Of a stretch of 64,000 nt of DNA, positions 24,780-32,400 are shown piece after piece. Position 1 is the first letter of the stretch. Every line of letters starts with the position of its first letter. The notes beneath the pieces are model-generated. The model saw only the letters and a list, made by a program, of their open reading frames with translations. It was not told the origin of the DNA and did not search any database. This DNA is from Archangium sp. (GTDB lineage: Bacteria; Myxococcota; Myxococcia; Myxococcales; Myxococcaceae). The stretch is from positions 1 through 64,000 of the forward strand of contig JALHMW010000006.1 of NCBI GenBank assembly GCA_022843845.1. Reading direction: 5' to 3'. Made by a program: the position numbers and the translations under genes.

Positions 24780-25895
24780 ATGCCGGCTGGCTCGAAGCGC
24801 GACTACTACGAAGTGTTGGGCGTCGAACGCTCTGCTGACGCAGACGCCCTCAAGAAGGCCTTCCGCAAGCTGGCCATGGAGTTCCACCCGGACCGCAACC
24901 CCGGCAACAAGGAGGCCGAGGAGAAGTTCAAGGAGATCTCCGAGGCGTACGAGGTGCTGTCCGACCCCGACAAGCGCGCCCGCTTCGATCGTTTCGGCCA
25001 CGCGGGCATGGGCGGCTTCCAGCCTGGAGAGGGCTTCAGCGGCGCGAACATCAACGACATCTTCGGAGAGATCTTCGGCGACTTCTTCGGCGGCGGCCGG
25101 CAGCGTCGGCAGCGCAACCGCGGCGCCGACCTCCGCTACAACCTCGAGCTGTCCTTCGAAGAGGCCGCGTTCGGCGCCGAGGTGACGGTGAAGCTGCCGC
25201 GCCCGAAGCGGTGCGAGCCGTGTGAAGGCACGGGCTCCAAGTCGAAGCAGATGCGCCAGTGCCCCACGTGTGGTGGCGCGGGCGAGGTGCGCTTCACGCA
25301 GGGCTTCTTCGCGGTCGCGCGCACGTGTTCGCAGTGCAGCGGCTCAGGCCAGGTGGTGGCCGACCCGTGCAAGAGCTGCGGCGGCACCGGCAAGCTCGAC
25401 GCGACGAGCGAGCTGACGGTGAAGATTCCTCCCGGCGTCGACACCGGCACGCGGGTGCGGCTGGCGGGCGAAGGAGAGGTCGGCGAGCAGGGCGGGCCTC
25501 CGGGCGATCTCTACGTCGTCGTCCACGTGAAGGAGCACTCGCTCTTCCACCGTGAGGACCAGGACGTGTTCGTCATCGTGCCGGTCGGCTTCGTGCAGGC
25601 GGCGCTCGGCGCGCAGATCGACGTCCCGACGCTCGACGGCGTGGTGAAGATGAAGATCCCCGAGGGCACGCAGACGGACAAGGTGTTCCGCCTCAAGGGC
25701 AAGGGCATTCCCAGCCTGCACGGTGGCGGCCGCGGCGATCAGCACGTGAAGGTGGTGGTCGAGACGCCGACCAACCTCTCGTCGAAGCAGAAGAAGCTGC
25801 TCGAGGAGTTCGCCACGCTCGATCACGACGAGGCGCACCCGCAGTCGAAGAGCTTCTTCGCGAAGGTCAAGGAGCTGTTCGGCGCCGCGAAGTGA
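24780..25895 (+). CDS. dnaJ: Chaperone DnaJ
   Basis: A 371-residue full-length type I DnaJ, the co-chaperone that delivers unfolded proteins to DnaK and stimulates its ATPase. The J domain holds the essential HPD at residues 36-38, followed by a Gly/Phe-rich linker. Four CxxCxGxG zinc motifs come next ([32 protein letters not shown]), then the C-terminal substrate-binding domains. It is not next to dnaK or grpE here, so it may be a second copy or an isolated locus. Confidence 0.96.
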
Positions 25896-26014: not shown

Positions 26015-27580
26015 ATGGCTGAGCTGGCCCGCGGCACCATCGTGGCGCACATCTACGAGATCGAGTCGCCGCTCGGCTCGGGTGGCTTCGGCGCGACGTA
26101 CCTCGCGCGCAACACCACGCTCAAGGGCGGGCAGGTCGTCGTCAAGCAGGTCGCCAGCGAAGACCAGGGTGAAGAAGAGGCCATGGTGCTGGTCGGCCTG
26201 CAGAGCGCGAACGTGGTGCGCGTGCTGGCCTTCGACGAGAAGCACCGCGCCATCGTCATGGAGCGCGCGGCCGGTGAGCCGCTGGCCGATCTGATCCCCA
26301 AGCTCAGCATGGTCGACGCCGTGCGCATCGCGCGGGAGGTCGCCGTCGCGCTGAGCGAGCTCGAGACGCGCGAGCTGGTGCACCGCGACGTCAAACCCGA
26401 GAACGTGATGGTGACGTTGCGCGGGGCTGATGGGCGCCTGTCGGTGAAGTTGATCGACTTCGGCATCGCGCTGAAGGCCGGCAAGCCGCTCAAGGGCGAC
26501 CCGGTCGGCAGCCCGCTCTATTGCCCGGCGGAGCAGCACGATCGACATGTGCCTCCGCACCCCGCTGACGACGTCTACGCGCTCGGTGGCGTGCTGTTCC
26601 ACATGGTGACGGGGCAGGCCCCGTACGCGCCCGAGAAGTTGTCCGACGAGCAGCGCACCGATTTTTTGACGGGCCTCGGCTTCGACCCGACCGTGACCGA
26701 CTCGTCGATCCTCGAGGCGCTGCAGCTGCGCATGATGCACCAGAGCGCGCCGCCGCCGAGCATCTTCTCGTACCTCGATGAAGCCCAGCAGCGCGCGGTC
26801 GACCCCGAGCTGCTGCAGACGCTCGATGAGCTGCTCAAGCGCATGCTGGGCAAGCACCGCTCCGGCCGGCCCCGCGCCCGGGAAGTCGAGCACGTGCTGG
26901 AGCGCCTCGACGCAAGGTTCACCAGCGGCGCGACCCAGACGAACTTCAAGCTGCGAACGGCGCCGTTGCCGCCGACGTCGACGCTGGTGCTGCCCAGGCG
27001 CATCGTCCCGAAGGCCACCAACGTCACGCCCTCGGGAGCCGTCTCTCCCGACCGCGTCTCGACCGATCAGCTCGCGCAGCAGGTGAGGCCGAAGCCGCGA
27101 AGGGCGCTGCTCGCCGGGTTGTTCGCGTTCGTGCTCGGCGGAGTGGCGGTGCTCTCGTTGTGGCCTTCGAGTGGCTCGCAGGGCGATCCGACGCGTGTCA
27201 CGCCCGTGGTCGAGCCGCCGTCCGTTCCCGTCCTCGCCGCGGTCGATGCGAGCGTCTCGCCTCCGCTCGTCGTGAGCCCGGTCGTCGACGCGGGCGACGA
27301 GGAGCTGACGCCGTTCGGCAAGATTCCCGTGAAGCCCGTCGTCAAGCCGGCCGTGCCGACGGTGGTCTGCGACGATCGGTGGCGACGCGCCGTGAAGCAG
27401 GAGCTGCGCGATCTGCACGCCGAGGTCGCGAAGAAGGACGATGACGCGCTCTTCATTCGTTTCGAGAAGGACGAAGAGCGGGTGCTCGACAAGATGAACG
27501 CAGAGAAGGTGAGCACACCTGCCGGGTGCGTCGAGGCCGACACGGCCGCCACCCGGTTGCTGACCGACTACCGAAAATGA
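26015..27580 (+). CDS. Transmembrane Ser/Thr protein kinase with a novel C-terminal Cys/Trp domain
   Basis: A 521-residue Hanks-type kinase. The catalytic domain (about 8-270) has the glycine loop GSGGFG, Lys44, HRD with Asp125, and DFG with Asp148; the activation segment GSPLYCPAEQ replaces the usual APE. Asp125, Lys44 and Asp148 are all present, so activity is expected. One membrane helix lies near residues 361-385. The outside part ends in a 70-residue domain starting VCDDRW and containing a second cysteine (PAGC) near its end. A close relative of this domain occurs twice in the protein encoded by 31309-32400. It heads a four-gene operon. ATG 26015 was preferred over GTG 25994. Confidence 0.9.
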   Translation: MAELARGTIVAHIYEIESPLGSGGFGATYLARNTTLKGGQVVVKQVASEDQGEEEAMVLVGLQSANVVRVLAFDEKHRAIVMERAAGEPLADLIPKLSMVDAVRIAREVAVALSELETRELVHRDVKPENVMVTLRGADGRLSVKLIDFGIALKAGKPLKGDPVGSPLYCPAEQHDRHVPPHPADDVYALGGVLFHMVTGQAPYAPEKLSDEQRTDFLTGLGFDPTVTDSSILEALQLRMMHQSAPPPSIFSYLDEAQQRAVDPELLQTLDELLKRMLGKHRSGRPRAREVEHVLERLDARFTSGATQTNFKLRTAPLPPTSTLVLPRRIVPKATNVTPSGAVSPDRVSTDQLAQQVRPKPRRALLAGLFAFVLGGVAVLSLWPSSGSQGDPTRVTPVVEPPSVPVLAAVDASVSPPLVVSPVVDAGDEELTPFGKIPVKPVVKPAVPTVVCDDRWRRAVKQELRDLHAEVAKKDDDALFIRFEKDEERVLDKMNAEKVSTPAGCVEADTAATRLLTDYRK

Positions 27581-27588
27581 GGACTCAC

Positions 27589-28533
27589 ATGCGCGGGCTC
27601 GTGGTGGGGTGGTGTCTGCTCTCGGTGGTGGCGGAGGCGCAGCCACAGCCGGTCGTCGCTCCGTACCCGTTCGAGGTGCTCACGCGTGGCATCGAGCCCG
27701 CGAAGGTCGAAGAGCTGCAATCGGTGGCGAGCCGATTGTTGTCGAACGCCGGGGTCTCTCCGCAGCCGAAGGGGATGATCAAGAACGCCCTCGAGCGCCT
27801 CAAGCGGCAAGACTGCGGAACCGAAGACGATTGCCTGCGGCAGCTCGCGACGCTCTCCGATGCGCTCTACGGCCTGTACTTCAGCGTGGCGGCGACTCCG
27901 ACGGCCGTGACGGTGGCCGGGCGAGTCGTGCGTGACGACGGGAAGCGTGTGGCGGGGCCCGAGCAGATCGTCGAGGAGCGCAAAGCGAAGGAGCCCATCG
28001 ACGCGACGATGAAGCGCGCGCTGCCGAAGTTGTTCGCGGCGCTGAAGCTGTCGCAGTTGCCCGCGGTGCGCGAGGTGGTGACGACGGTGAAGCCGCCCGA
28101 TCCCGTGAAGCCGCCGGATCTGGTGAACCCGCCGCCTGCCGTCGACGCGGGCGTGGTTGGACTCCCGCCACCTCCGCCGCCTCCGGTTGAAGAGTCGGTG
28201 CTGCGGCCGGCGGGCATCGTGACAGCGATCGCTGGTGGTTCGCTCGCGGCGGGTGGCACGGTGATGCTCATCGTCGGGCGTGCTCAGGCTGATGCGGTGC
28301 TGCTGCCGGGTGGCGTGCTGAAACCGGGCGGGAGCGCGGAGGACGCGACGACAGCCCGGAACGCGACGTCGCTTCAGTCGGCCGGAGTGGCCGTCGCTGG
28401 TCTCGGGGTCGCGGCCATCGGCGCGGGGCTGGTGATGGTGCTGATGGCTCCGGCGGAGCCCGTGAAGACGTCGGTGTTCGCAGCGCCCATGCCGGGCGGC
28501 GCTGCGGTGTTCGTGACTGGAGTGTTGCCATGA
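27589..28533 (+). CDS. Exported Pro-rich protein with C-terminal membrane helices (kinase operon)
   Basis: A 314-residue protein with a signal peptide (MRGLVVGWCLLSVVAEAQ). A folded region of about 130 residues resembles proteins that sense or assemble in the envelope (VASRLLSNAGVSPQPKGMIKNALERL). A proline-rich linker (VKPPDPVKPPDLVNPPP) follows, then two C-terminal hydrophobic segments. I chose ATG 27589, which has GAGG six bases upstream; ATG 27577 overlaps the kinase stop in ATGA form and adds four residues. The gene is in the kinase operon and overlaps the next gene by four bases. The domain layout resembles the product of 7225-7890. Function is unknown. Confidence 0.7.
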   Translation: MRGLVVGWCLLSVVAEAQPQPVVAPYPFEVLTRGIEPAKVEELQSVASRLLSNAGVSPQPKGMIKNALERLKRQDCGTEDDCLRQLATLSDALYGLYFSVAATPTAVTVAGRVVRDDGKRVAGPEQIVEERKAKEPIDATMKRALPKLFAALKLSQLPAVREVVTTVKPPDPVKPPDLVNPPPAVDAGVVGLPPPPPPPVEESVLRPAGIVTAIAGGSLAAGGTVMLIVGRAQADAVLLPGGVLKPGGSAEDATTARNATSLQSAGVAVAGLGVAAIGAGLVMVLMAPAEPVKTSVFAAPMPGGAAVFVTGVLP

Positions 28534-31301
28534 CGCGGCTGCTGGTGGCGTTTGCGGTGCTGTCGGTGTCGGGGTGCCTGTGCGCGAAGGAGTGCATAAA
28601 CGATTCGGACTGCACTGACGGCGCAATCTGCGGCGCGCAGAAGCTCTGTGAGTCCCGGCCCGATGGTGGGACTGGTGGCGGTTCGGTCGGTGGCGGGTCT
28701 GGTGGCGGTGGTGCTGTAGCCGGCGGCGGTGCGATGGGTGGTGGCGGGGCGGCTGGCGGCGGTGCGATGGGTGGTGGTGGCGGTGCGATGGGCGGCGGTG
28801 GCGCGATGGGCGGCGGCACGACCGGAGGCGGGACGGGTGGAGGAATGGGGGGCGGAGCGGCTTCCGTCTGCTCGCCTGGCTGCGCGGAGTGGGCGGCGTG
28901 CACTCGTCTGGCTGATGCTGGCCTTGGCTGCGTGCCGGGCCTGCTCATCGTGACGTCTCCGGCCGATGGCGAGCCTGTGCCTGCAGATGGGAGCGTTCCG
29001 TTGCTCGCGAGGCTCGAGCAACAGGGCGGCGCTGCCTGGCCGACTGACGCGTCGATTCCGGTGACGACGTCGTGGGGGCAGGTGGTCGCTCCGGTCGTGA
29101 GTGGACGTCCGAGCATCGTCACAGCGGCGGCGGGACCGGGCTTCGGCAGCGTGACGTTCGGTTGGGTCGGAGATGGTGGACCGATTCCCCAGACGATCAC
29201 TCGCGGCGTCGAGTTCACCGAGTGCACGCCGAGCGTCGCGATCACGGTTCAGCCGTGGGAGAAGTGCGTGCCGACGACGGACGGCGGTCGCCGCGAGGCC
29301 GTGGTGTTGGCCGTCGCCTTCTCGAGTCCTGATGCAGGCACGGTCGGCCCGAACGTGTCGGTTGGAGCAACGGTCGTGCTGACCCTGGCGAGCGATGCCG
29401 GGCCGTTCGCGAGTGCCGTGCCGTGGAGCGAAGCTTCGATGCTGACCGGAGCCGGCAACACGCGCACCGGCACTGCGACGACGCCGAATTCGAACGGGCC
29501 CTTCACGCTTCGTGCGGGCTGGCCTGGTGGACCAGACGCGAGCGTCACGCTGCAGGTCGACGCGGTCGGGCCTGTCTTGACCTGGAAGCTCCGGCCGGAT
29601 GGCGGGGTCGTCGGCGGCAGGCGCGACGAGGTGGTGCTTGCCCAGCTCGAGTCGAGCGAGACCCTGCAGGCGCCGCCGGTCGTCTCGTTCGAGGACGCGG
29701 GTGTGAGCACGATTGGGACTGGCGCGTGCCCAGGCTGGTCGTGCGCAGGCGCGAGGTGTGACTGCTACGAGCTCGACCTTGCTGTGCCTGACTTGATGCA
29801 GCTGACCGGTCAGTTCGGGCTGCGGGCGTCGGCGAGAGATGTGTATGGGAACCCAAACACTGGGAGCGCGTCCGTTCCGGTGACGCGCCTGCGGTGGAGG
29901 ACGAACATCGCTGTCGGGGGCGCGGCGCCGTTGCGTGCCGCCCCAGCCGTCGACTCGCAGGGAAACCTCTACATCGGCACTGATGACACGGGAGCAGGCA
30001 CGACGGGACGCCTCGTGTCGCTCAACCCAATCGACGGTGCCATGCGCCCCGGCTTCCCCGTGACGACCGGAGCCGTCCAGTCCGTCTCGGTCGGCCGCAG
30101 CCGTGTCGGCGCAGTGTTGGGCGAGGTCGTGTACGTAAACTCGAACGTCACCGCGGGAAGCCGAATCGACATGTTCACGACCGACGGTGGCTCGACGGGC
30201 AGCGCGTTGGTCGAGCCAGTTCAGAAGACGTACTCGGCAATCGCGTTGTTTCGCGCTGACTCGAACGCGATCGCAAACGTGGGCGCAGCGGCGGTGTTCA
30301 ACACTGCTGGGACGAGTGGATACATCGGCAGTGCTACTCCCAACGTCCCAGCACGGTTTTCGAGCCTGAGCGCTGATTACGTCCTCCCAATCCCCGGGGC
30401 GTCAGTGCTCTCAAGCCCCGTGAACGCGATTGCGTTCAATCGAGATGGCGGCACCGAGCTCCAGTTCCCGACCGGGTCTGGGGTTCCGAATGCTCGGCGA
30501 CTCCAGTCGAGGCTTTTCGACCCAATGGGCGCCTCATGGGGGGCTGGCAGCATGAGCAGCACCGCCTACGTCAACCTGAGTGGCTCGGCCGCAAGAGGTC
30601 TGGCTGCGGCTGGTGGAACGACCTTCGTCAGCATCGAGGGCAGCCTCACACCATTGCGTGCATGGAGGCCGCTCGGGACTTTCGCTGAATTCCCCGAATT
30701 CCCGGCACTCGATGGCGTGGGTCCCGCCGTCGTCGCGGTGGCGAGCGGTTCTGGTGGCATCGATTCCAAGCTGCTGTTCGGGACGAACCTCTCCGACGAA
30801 ACCTCGACGGCCTGGGTGCTGACAGCGCCCGCAAACAGCGCCACTGGCACGTTGCCGGGCGACGCTGGCGTCATGACGACTCAGAACGGCATGGCAGGTC
30901 GAGTTCTGACGAGTCCGGTCATCGGCGGTGGTGGACTTCCCCACGGCACCAGCGGCACCGCCGACCGGGTGTACGTCGTTCATGAAACCGGCGTCGTGCG
31001 GGCCCTCGTGAGTCCGACTTCTTCATCGGCAGTCGTCGAGTGGACGGCCTCCGCGGTCGACGTCTTCGGCGGCGTGAAGACCATCTACGCCCACCCGACA
31101 CTCGACTGCGGCACTCGGCCCTTCGTCGCCGGCCGGCCCGGAGTCCTCTACGTCGTCGCGACCGACGGCACCGTCGCAGCCATCCTCGTCGACTCCTCGA
31201 AGCTCTCGATGACCGCTCCGTGGCCGAAGTGGCAACGCACTGCAGGCAACGCCGGCAACGACGACGAAGGCCTCTTCCCGCGAAACCCCGGCTGCAACTG
31301 A
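28530..31301 (+). CDS. Large lipoprotein with Gly-rich linker and beta-propeller-like domain (kinase operon)
   Basis: A 923-residue protein with a lipobox (VLSVSGCLCAKEC), a small cysteine-rich domain, and a long glycine-rich linker. Ig-like beta-domains follow (residues about 140-450). The C-terminal half is PQQ-type beta-propeller-like, with RAAPAVDSQGNLYIGT and LNPIDGAMRPGFPV. It would be a surface sensor or adhesin exposed outside the outer membrane. Third-position GC looks lower than in neighbouring genes. It overlaps the upstream gene by ATGA, and the next gene begins 7 bases later. A ligand-sensing role for the kinase is inference. Confidence 0.75.
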   Translation: MTRLLVAFAVLSVSGCLCAKECINDSDCTDGAICGAQKLCESRPDGGTGGGSVGGGSGGGGAVAGGGAMGGGGAAGGGAMGGGGGAMGGGGAMGGGTTGGGTGGGMGGGAASVCSPGCAEWAACTRLADAGLGCVPGLLIVTSPADGEPVPADGSVPLLARLEQQGGAAWPTDASIPVTTSWGQVVAPVVSGRPSIVTAAAGPGFGSVTFGWVGDGGPIPQTITRGVEFTECTPSVAITVQPWEKCVPTTDGGRREAVVLAVAFSSPDAGTVGPNVSVGATVVLTLASDAGPFASAVPWSEASMLTGAGNTRTGTATTPNSNGPFTLRAGWPGGPDASVTLQVDAVGPVLTWKLRPDGGVVGGRRDEVVLAQLESSETLQAPPVVSFEDAGVSTIGTGACPGWSCAGARCDCYELDLAVPDLMQLTGQFGLRASARDVYGNPNTGSASVPVTRLRWRTNIAVGGAAPLRAAPAVDSQGNLYIGTDDTGAGTTGRLVSLNPIDGAMRPGFPVTTGAVQSVSVGRSRVGAVLGEVVYVNSNVTAGSRIDMFTTDGGSTGSALVEPVQKTYSAIALFRADSNAIANVGAAAVFNTAGTSGYIGSATPNVPARFSSLSADYVLPIPGASVLSSPVNAIAFNRDGGTELQFPTGSGVPNARRLQSRLFDPMGASWGAGSMSSTAYVNLSGSAARGLAAAGGTTFVSIEGSLTPLRAWRPLGTFAEFPEFPALDGVGPAVVAVASGSGGIDSKLLFGTNLSDETSTAWVLTAPANSATGTLPGDAGVMTTQNGMAGRVLTSPVIGGGGLPHGTSGTADRVYVVHETGVVRALVSPTSSSAVVEWTASAVDVFGGVKTIYAHPTLDCGTRPFVAGRPGVLYVVATDGTVAAILVDSSKLSMTAPWPKWQRTAGNAGNDDEGLFPRNPGCN
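28665..28860 (+). repeat. Gly-rich low-complexity coding repeat
   Basis: About 196 bases of imperfect GGTGGCGGTGCGATGGG-type units encode GGGAMGGG-like repeats inside the lipoprotein. The repeat is in frame, so it is a flexible linker rather than a mobile or CRISPR repeat. Slippage here could vary the linker length between strains. Confidence 0.85.
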
Positions 31302-31308
31302 CCCGTCG

Positions 31309-32400
31309 ATGAAGGGCCTGAACGTCAACGGCTTCATCATCGTCGAGACGCTCGGCTCGGGCCGCTCCGGACTGCTGTACCTCGCTCGTCACCCGACGAC
31401 CGGCCAGGAGGCCATCATTCGTCTGGCCGGGAACGCCGAAGACGGGGTGACGGCGAAGGTGTTCCTCGAAGAGGCGGCGTCGCTGCTCCCGTCGTTGCGC
31501 GGGGTCGAGCCGTCGGTCACCTCAGACGGCCGGAGCGTGCTGATGGCGCGCGCGGATGCTTCGACCGAGCCGCTCCCGTCGGTGCCGCCGCAGCCCGAGC
31601 TTCGCACGGAGCCGCTCCCGCAACCTCGTGCCGGCGAAGGTCGAACGATGCACCCGAACACGGCGCAGCTCCCGGTCGCGGTGCCCGGGCAGCCACGCCG
31701 GGTGCTCCCGCTCGCGATGATGTTCATCGGGCTCGCGGCCCTCGGCGCTGGCGTCACCGTCGCGATGCTCGCGCTCGAGGCCCGGCCGACGCCCGCTCCA
31801 CGCGTCGCACCGAGTGCCACGCCGTCCGCGCCACCGGTGCAGCCGAACGTCGCTGCTGTCCCCCAGCCGTCACCACCTGAACCCGCGCCGCTGCCCGTCG
31901 TTGCCGTGAAGCCAACTCCGCCTCCTCGCGCTGCCGCGAAACCCCGGCCAGCCGCAGCGCCACGACGCGAGTGCATTGCCGACCAACAGTGGCGAAAGGC
32001 TGCACAGTCCGATCTTCTCCAGCACCGTCGCTTTGCTGCGCAGCTGGGGCCTGAGCCCTTCCGGCGCTTCGAGCTCGCCGAGGACGCCATCGTGGAGAGC
32101 ATCGAAGCCCTCCCGATGGATGGTGATTGCAGTGAGGTCGACGCAGAGATCGACAGACTGCTCCTCTCAGTCAAGCCGACCCCGGCCCCGAAGGTGGTGT
32201 GCACACCCGACGTGCTGTGGAAGCGCACCATGCAGAACAACCTCGCCGAGGTCGAAGAGCGGGCCAACGCGATGGAGCCGGTCGACGTGCAAGCCGAGGT
32301 GCGCGTCATCGGCGCAGCGGTCGAACGCGCTGAGAACCAGACACAGTGCGAGCAGGCGATGCGACGCTTCGAGGTGCTGCTCAAGCGCGCCATCAAGTAG
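31309..32400 (+). CDS. N-lobe-only pseudokinase with two Cys/Trp repeats (kinase operon)
   Basis: A 363-residue protein. Residues 1-75 resemble the N-terminal lobe of a Ser/Thr kinase: LGSGRSGLLYLARH matches the glycine loop, but the ATP-binding lysine is replaced in EAIIRLA, and there is no HRD or DFG. A Pro-rich linker, one membrane helix (MMFIGLAALGAGVTVAMLAL) and another Pro-rich linker follow. Two copies of a 70-residue domain then occur: CIADQQWRK... and CTPDVLWKR..., each with a second cysteine near its end (DGDC and QTQC). The kinase of the same operon has one copy. It probably pairs with that kinase through these domains. The start is ATG 31309, 7 bases after the lipoprotein. Confidence 0.75.
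   Translation: MKGLNVNGFIIVETLGSGRSGLLYLARHPTTGQEAIIRLAGNAEDGVTAKVFLEEAASLLPSLRGVEPSVTSDGRSVLMARADASTEPLPSVPPQPELRTEPLPQPRAGEGRTMHPNTAQLPVAVPGQPRRVLPLAMMFIGLAALGAGVTVAMLALEARPTPAPRVAPSATPSAPPVQPNVAAVPQPSPPEPAPLPVVAVKPTPPPRAAAKPRPAAAPRRECIADQQWRKAAQSDLLQHRRFAAQLGPEPFRRFELAEDAIVESIEALPMDGDCSEVDAEIDRLLLSVKPTPAPKVVCTPDVLWKRTMQNNLAEVEERANAMEPVDVQAEVRVIGAAVERAENQTQCEQAMRRFEVLLKRAIK

Follow-up and report, generated by a model that had tools for sequence, protein, structure and literature searches.

The first 64,000 nucleotides of contig JALHMW010000006.1 from Archangium sp. (assembly GCA_022843845.1; hereafter the window) carry on their forward strand four neighboring genes, which encode a complete receptor-type Ser/Thr kinase (KIN), an exported protein (EXP), a propeller lipoprotein (LIP), and a membrane pseudokinase (PSK) whose kinase part consists of an N-lobe only (Table 1). 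We find that PSK represents a family of such genes, that its N-lobe is, judging from sequence comparisons, under purifying selection rather than debris, and that it shares with KIN an outside domain marked by conserved Cys and Trp residues. A kinase fragment may here have been turned into a regulatory subunit.

The kinase part of PSK is an N-lobe without a C-lobe

PSK is not recognized as a kinase by Pfam or NCBIfam. A profile of nine relatives of its N-lobe—i.e. the first 85 residues—has a Ser/Thr kinase as best match among PDB sequences (E = 1.4e-5), and phmmer links the N-lobe to a kinase encoded in a related operon (E = 1.3e-7). In the AlphaFold model of PSK, b1-b2-b3-aC-b4-b5 lead into a membrane helix, which is followed by helical domains. 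Ten-residue blocks of the N-lobe mostly have pLDDT values of 72–84, with one at 60, and the whole chain reaches a pLDDT of 65.7 and a pTM of only 0.28. With Foldseek, the best 50 of 1996 PDB matches of the N-lobe (E up to 10) are all kinases; the top match is PknI (E = 1.4e-3, prob 1.00), and none lies at or below 0.001. The window PSK has neither HRD nor DFG. As such, the earlier sequence-only reading of PSK, as an N-lobe whose Lys is replaced and which lacks HRD and DFG, is borne out by sequence, AlphaFold, and fold matches.

The PSK family includes nine genes in 6 of 96 genomes of the window's own family, from two genera; the remaining matches from this 96-genome search belong to the tails of kinases or to the N-lobe of a kinase, and a scan with the PSK alignment yields 5 loci. 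All genome counts given here are lower bounds (in most genomes, the first pass scored only 24–33 candidates). All nine genes lack both the VAIK lysine (replaced by Arg in eight and by Cys in one) and the C-lobe, and N-lobe identity across the family falls to 38%. In an unrooted tree with 29 kinases, the nine N-lobes lie together on one side of a branch with support of 99/98. Between the N-lobe and the membrane helix, all nine also carry the motif GxGxTx[HF]xxTxxL; the pattern, which was written after the PSKs had been inspected, occurs in no other of 4474 six-frame open reading frames (ORFs) scanned. A frameshifted full kinase is an unlikely origin, because all nine genes run from b5 into this same motif.

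The N-lobe evolves under stronger constraint than the remainder of the gene. Specifically, dN/dS values for N-lobe and rest of gene are 0.19 and 0.53 between the window and the second operon of the same genome, 0.16 and 0.26 between the window and the orthologue in genome G154, 0.07 and 0.17 between the second operon and G154, and 0.11 and 0.47 between the second operon and genome G150. That the N-lobe value is lower in all four comparisons argues that PSK is not decaying.

Other parts of PSK differ more between genomes. At the first locus, i.e. that of the window, the linker and outside domain (31780–32380) are 62–72% identical in DNA to G154 (L077), compared with 88–92% for the N-lobe and membrane helix, and the second repeat copy is missing from G154. 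A PSK outside part that co-varies with LIP is seen at the first locus only; the second-locus PSK protein is 87–98% identical, and co-variation is not claimed. In another PSK (L082, about 600–900), the hexapeptide SPTGAA is repeated in tandem within the linker.

KIN and PSK are probably encoded in a conserved four-gene operon

The catalytic domain of KIN matches PF00069 (E = 1.2e-30) and is complete, with the VAIK Lys (as VVVK), HRD, and DFG all present, and a hydrophobic segment follows at about 27104–27160. KIN has no PASTA match in the Pfam scan, and the PknB_PASTA_kin model scores 109 bits against a cut-off of 450, over the kinase part only.

ATGA overlaps at both the KIN/EXP and EXP/LIP junctions, together with a PSK start 7 bases past the end of LIP, make a single operon likely. 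A scan of the locus for promoters and terminators gave no signal above chance. All four genes stand on one contig, in the order KIN-EXP-LIP-PSK, at five places from two genera (the window, L004, L077, L085, and L094), and one of these, L004, is a second complete operon in the window's own genome (contig C10). This supports the four genes as a conserved operon. LIP lies directly upstream of PSK in all seven cases that can be checked; the two other PSKs start at contig ends. In the draft genome G152, the genes are divided between two loci (L083, L084), one with KIN-EXP-LIP and no PSK, the other with LIP-PSK and neither KIN nor EXP.

A further kinase lies on another contig of the window's genome (C12; L005, 3236–4753), with an EXP homologue two genes on (1239–2303). 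Its tail contains Cys and is borderline to the profile of the Cys/Trp domain (E = 0.017).

A three-helix Cys/Trp domain in receptor kinases of one family

The sequence-only reading had proposed a repeat of about 70 residues shared by the C-terminus of KIN and two tandem segments of PSK. The shared domain is real, with copies at 27365–27577, 31969–32175, and 32197–32397, and with the correction that it is built of three helices. The kinase tail and PSK copy 1 are clearly related in a pairwise shuffle test (z = 9.0, with 0 of 2000 shuffles as good). Copy 2 alone is weak, as 26 of 2000 shuffles do as well against copy 1 and 489 of 2000 against the kinase tail. A profile of related copies finds copies 1 and 2 with E values of 8.4e-19 and 1.1e-12, which are partly circular because both are among its own seed rows; the relatedness of all three copies thus stands, with copy 2 needing a profile of which it was a seed. 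AlphaFold models the KIN copy (27368–27577) with a pLDDT of 94.2 and a pTM of 0.78, and with long helices at residues 3–22, 26–43, and 51–68. Shuffles, profile scores, and this confident fold rule out low complexity as the explanation of the repeats, and the segment is, on sequence and model, a domain.

Three columns, C, W, and C, are invariant in an alignment of 24 rows, which were chosen, with partial matches excluded. The helix order probably places both conserved Cys at one end of the bundle, and they may form a disulfide. The alignment used against Pfam and the PDB, in which a leading GTG was read as Met in two rows, finds no Pfam family in more than one of nine members (best E = 0.0087) and no convincing PDB sequence (best E = 0.11). 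The best PDB fold in Foldseek has an E value of 2.2, and three-helix bundles are difficult to assign by structure comparison. The suggestion that the repeat belongs to no named family is consistent with these searches.

Matches to the repeat occur in 11 of 195 genomes of the phylum with a first profile and in 18 of 195 with a wider one, and 17 of these 18 belong to the window's own family. The sole match outside it (G046, L112) covers only profile positions 26–66, in an ORF without a kinase match, and was dropped as false. With this genome left out, the loci examined hold 43 matches, i.e. 28 at kinase C-termini (including one, L113, that is cut by a contig end so that its kinase domain is not visible), 12 in PSKs, and 3 in remnants. 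Two tandem copies are not the rule in PSK: six of the nine genes have one match and three have two, some of them partial. A tree of the repeats (39 rows and 68 columns, with 4 of the 43 matches left out as too short) resolves little, with 5 of 36 inner branches well supported.

Among the 29 kinases examined, 27 carry the Cys/Trp tail at their C-terminus with an E value of 2.4e-7 or better, and the other two are borderline (L094, E = 0.009, and the L005 kinase mentioned above). Kinase tails and genomes without PSK rule out a repeat private to kinase–pseudokinase pairs. Since no PSK is found in 11 of the 17 domain-bearing family genomes, pairing with a pseudokinase cannot be the general function of the domain. 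We conclude from these sequences that it serves a receptor-kinase class of one myxobacterial family as its outside domain; the kinase is usually followed by EXP and only sometimes accompanied by PSK.

The propeller of LIP is hypervariable between two genomes

The designation of LIP as a propeller lipoprotein is supported by its profile, which matches PQQ-type propellers, natural and designed, over up to nine stretches (best E = 3.3e-54), and by Cys16, which is invariant in all eight aligned LIPs. Pfam finds no propeller in the window LIP. Compared with G154, DNA identity at the first locus is 86–98% for dnaJ and the downstream genes and 95–99% for the catalytic part of KIN, and it falls to 50–62% within LIP, over 30180–30979. 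At the protein level, LIP residues 651–850 are 17–46% identical to the G154 orthologue, compared with 96% for the adjoining C-terminal end. The second locus has a similar profile: LIP protein identity to G154 is 71–78% over residues 381–480, 21–38% over 481–830, and then 56%, with a downstream flank of 82–96% DNA identity.

These values come from one pair of draft genomes, in which the dS of LIP is high (0.89); this points to replacement by recombination rather than to demonstrated positive selection. The comparison suggests that, at either locus, the propeller acts as a recognition module that is replaceable or diverges rapidly.

A possible role for PSK

We tentatively favor, at a little under an even chance, a receptor-kinase complex in which the variable sensor LIP acts via KIN and PSK, and in which the PSK N-lobe regulates KIN in trans, with heteromer formation, docking, and phosphorylation as presumed steps. 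The sequence-only reading, in which the repeats mediate heteromer formation outside and the N-lobe modulates the kinase inside, is thus partly supported: the copies are related, and both proposed functions are plausible. The products of the four genes would form one envelope-spanning signaling complex, where the propeller of LIP would recognize a changeable, as yet conjectural, ligand outside the inner membrane, and where EXP and the three-helix domains would link LIP to KIN and PSK. KIN and PSK would be single-pass membrane proteins with the same disulfide-tied domain outside, which could bring the two together or let both bind LIP or EXP. Inside the cell, the noncatalytic N-lobe would dock on KIN and alter its activity in trans as an allosteric subunit. 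The motif threonines and the TxxLP sites are likely phosphosites; those of the PSK juxtamembrane stretch and of KIN would probably be KIN substrates that recruit a phospho-reader. A bolder form, which we hold to be doubtful, has the N-lobe, freed from its C-lobe, as a membrane subunit dedicated to switching partner receptor kinases in trans, including kinases from different groups, in a complex whose sensor lipoprotein has diversified in the manner of a recognition factor; PSK would then be a half-kinase co-receptor.

Several observations are in line with such a complex. In the unrooted tree, the kinases adjoining PSK in genomes G153 and G071 do not belong to the branch of window-type kinases; the arrangement thus seems to have survived replacement of its kinase. 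When the two operons of the window's genome are compared, the PSK N-lobes are 83% identical, compared with 70% for the KIN N-lobes and 65% for the KIN catalytic domains, as if one N-lobe served both. The complementary loci of G152 look as if one of each gene sufficed, and hypervariability of the LIP propeller at both loci is as expected of a sensor. Purifying selection on the PSK N-lobe, the grouping of the nine N-lobes, the constant place of LIP upstream of PSK, the outside domain common to KIN and PSK, and its invariant Cys pair also speak for the complex. So do the TxxLP sites, which are present in the juxtamembrane stretch of eight of the nine PSKs (shuffle mean 0.8) and of 13 of the 29 kinases (shuffle mean 1.8).

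Other results weigh against this proposal. Between species, KIN catalytic domains are better conserved than PSK N-lobes (100 vs 93%, 93 vs 82%, and 94 vs 88% identity), so a more recent duplication or gene conversion, and not a shared partner, may be why the two PSK N-lobes of the genome are so alike. Indeed, the N-lobes of the window (31309–31557) and L004 (6789–7037) are as alike as orthologues (82%, window vs G150), and a PSK N-lobe better conserved than the active kinase holds only between this genome's two operons and not as a general claim. The separate loci of G152 may indicate that PSK works without KIN. The absence of PSK from 11 of the 17 domain-bearing family genomes also counts against the complex; within the genus, 2 of the 7 genomes have no PSK found (G149, with neither domain nor PSK, and G151). 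The Pfam Pkinase model sees the PSK N-lobe weakly, in one of nine members (E = 0.0012). TxxLP is absent from 16 of the 29 kinases and from the G071 PSK, whose paired kinase also lacks it; the shuffle counts take related sequences as independent, and the membrane helix of one kinase (L102) is probably misplaced in this comparison. Finally, in an alignment by eye, KIN has counterparts of the back-to-back interface residues of PknB, which we take to be Leu33 and Asp76, and these are not obvious in PSK; a PSK–KIN contact, if any, may therefore differ from a PknB-like dimer.

The motif also lends itself to another explanation, in which PSK is chiefly a phosphorylation platform: its N-lobe would be a docking tag, and the two invariant juxtamembrane threonines (Thr113 and Thr118), phosphorylated by KIN, would recruit a phospho-reader, e.g. 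an FHA protein, with KIN activity unchanged. The persistence of the motif in all nine PSKs despite N-lobes down to 38% identity, the presence of TxxLP in kinase juxtamembrane stretches as well, and the phosphorylation of the StkP juxtamembrane domain reported in the title of PMC12077195 all fit. A platform alone does not account for the purifying selection on an entire N-lobe that retains the Gly loop and the aC Glu, and we regard this explanation as unlikely, if far from negligible. It is improbable that PSK is instead a negative regulator, forming dead-end heterodimers with KIN that block kinase–kinase dimerization until LIP removes PSK. The common outside domain and the absence of catalytic residues from PSK would suit this role, but kinases in genomes without PSK would be left unrestrained, and activation and inhibition are not separable by the present evidence.

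PSK might also serve LIP alone, as membrane partner or as transducer to another kinase or protein, with its place beside KIN a matter of history. The LIP-PSK linkage in all seven testable cases, including the G152 locus without KIN and EXP, speaks for this, as do the different groups from which the adjoining kinases come; the gene order kept in five places and two genera, and the outside domain and TxxLP sites common to KIN and PSK, speak against it, and we regard it as quite improbable. Decay to a functionless kinase with leftover repeats would account for the missing C-lobe, and decay is indeed seen at the same place in G151, where what persists is a fragment of LIP plus an orphan ORF with repeats. 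Nine genes that group together, with low N-lobe dN/dS and an invariant motif, make this very improbable.

Comparison with known systems

PknB, StkP, and PknD are receptor-type Hanks Ser/Thr kinases, and KIN has the architecture of this class, with a cytoplasmic kinase, a juxtamembrane region, one membrane helix, and an outside part. It departs from this class in its outside part, a Cys/Trp three-helix domain of no known family, in having the propeller on a separate lipoprotein, and in the presence of a second, N-lobe-only subunit. To our knowledge, the bacterial pseudokinase families ActPs, GLW, CP1, DYD, and DLHK are all bilobal; PSK, which ends after b5, lacks the complete domain that we associate with them.

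The families ActPs1-3, GLW, CP1, DYD, and DLHK, which share with PSK a catalytically impaired kinase fold, are the subject of a review (PMC12599244). MviN (ActPs3), for example, is reported there to dimerize back to back, with constraints in its N-lobe that are specific to the family. The outline, the MviN passage, and the discussion of the review describe no family without a C-lobe, and the strings 'C-lobe', 'truncat', and 'Myxo' are absent from its main text. HipS of HipBST (PMC10627512), as presented there, belongs to a toxin–antitoxin system with a HipA-type kinase, and we claim no homology to PSK. EcpK of Myxococcus xanthus (PMC12004946) is, like PSK, a myxobacterial pseudokinase; unlike PSK, it is by its title a tyrosine pseudokinase of exopolysaccharide biosynthesis. 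Within a library of open-access papers, with subscription papers outside the search, we found no conserved bacterial family of N-lobe-only pseudokinases.

If the proposed complex is correct, it would allow a test, in a natural setting, of whether the N-lobe of a kinase can by itself control another kinase. The system also extends the known outside parts of bacterial receptor kinases by a further domain family, and it suggests how such kinases may couple to a detached, fast-evolving sensor.

Features of the locus, EXP, and flanking genes

Table 1. Features of the four-gene locus (window positions unless another locus is named).
Feature	Position	Strand	Basis
KIN: Hanks-type Ser/Thr kinase, catalytic domain cytoplasmic, juxtamembrane region, one membrane helix, Pro-rich linker, C-terminal Cys/Trp domain	26015..27580	+	
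Cys/Trp three-helix domain of KIN	27365..27577	+	profile match, AlphaFold
EXP: exported protein, N-terminal domain, Pro-rich linker, C-terminal hydrophobic hairpin	27577..28533	+	read from sequence
LIP: lipoprotein, Cys-rich N-terminus, Gly-rich linker, C-terminal PQQ-type propeller	28530..31301	+	
Hypervariable part of LIP propeller, residues 651-850	30480..31079	+	comparison with G154 orthologue
PSK: N-lobe-only pseudokinase, juxtamembrane motif, membrane helix, Pro-rich linker, two Cys/Trp domains	31309..32400	+	
Isolated kinase N-lobe of PSK: Gly-rich loop and aC Glu present, Arg in place of b3 Lys, no C-lobe after	31309..31557	+	
PSK juxtamembrane motif GxGxTx[HF]xxTxxL, then Pro here	31633..31671	+	
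PSK membrane helix, residues 133-157	31705..31779	+	AlphaFold helix, hydropathy
PSK Cys/Trp domain copy 1	31972..32175	+	profile match, AlphaFold
PSK Cys/Trp domain copy 2	32200..32397	+	profile match; no counterpart in orthologous G154 gene
Hypervariable LIP propeller part, second locus	L004 8300-7101		

EXP has no convincing match in Pfam or the PDB, and homologues are found after kinases at related loci. Matches to EXP homologues occur in 90 of the 96 family genomes, many of those listed only over the C-terminal part, which, by this distribution, is a widespread myxobacterial module.

On the 5' side, KIN is flanked by a gene at 24780–25895 that we take to be dnaJ, and on the 3' side PSK is followed, from 32538 on, by genes that are presumably MEMO1/AMMECR1-like. 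Near the dnaJ neighborhood of G151 (L092, 6704–7561), all that remains is a fragment of LIP and an orphan ORF carrying one complete repeat and a partial one.

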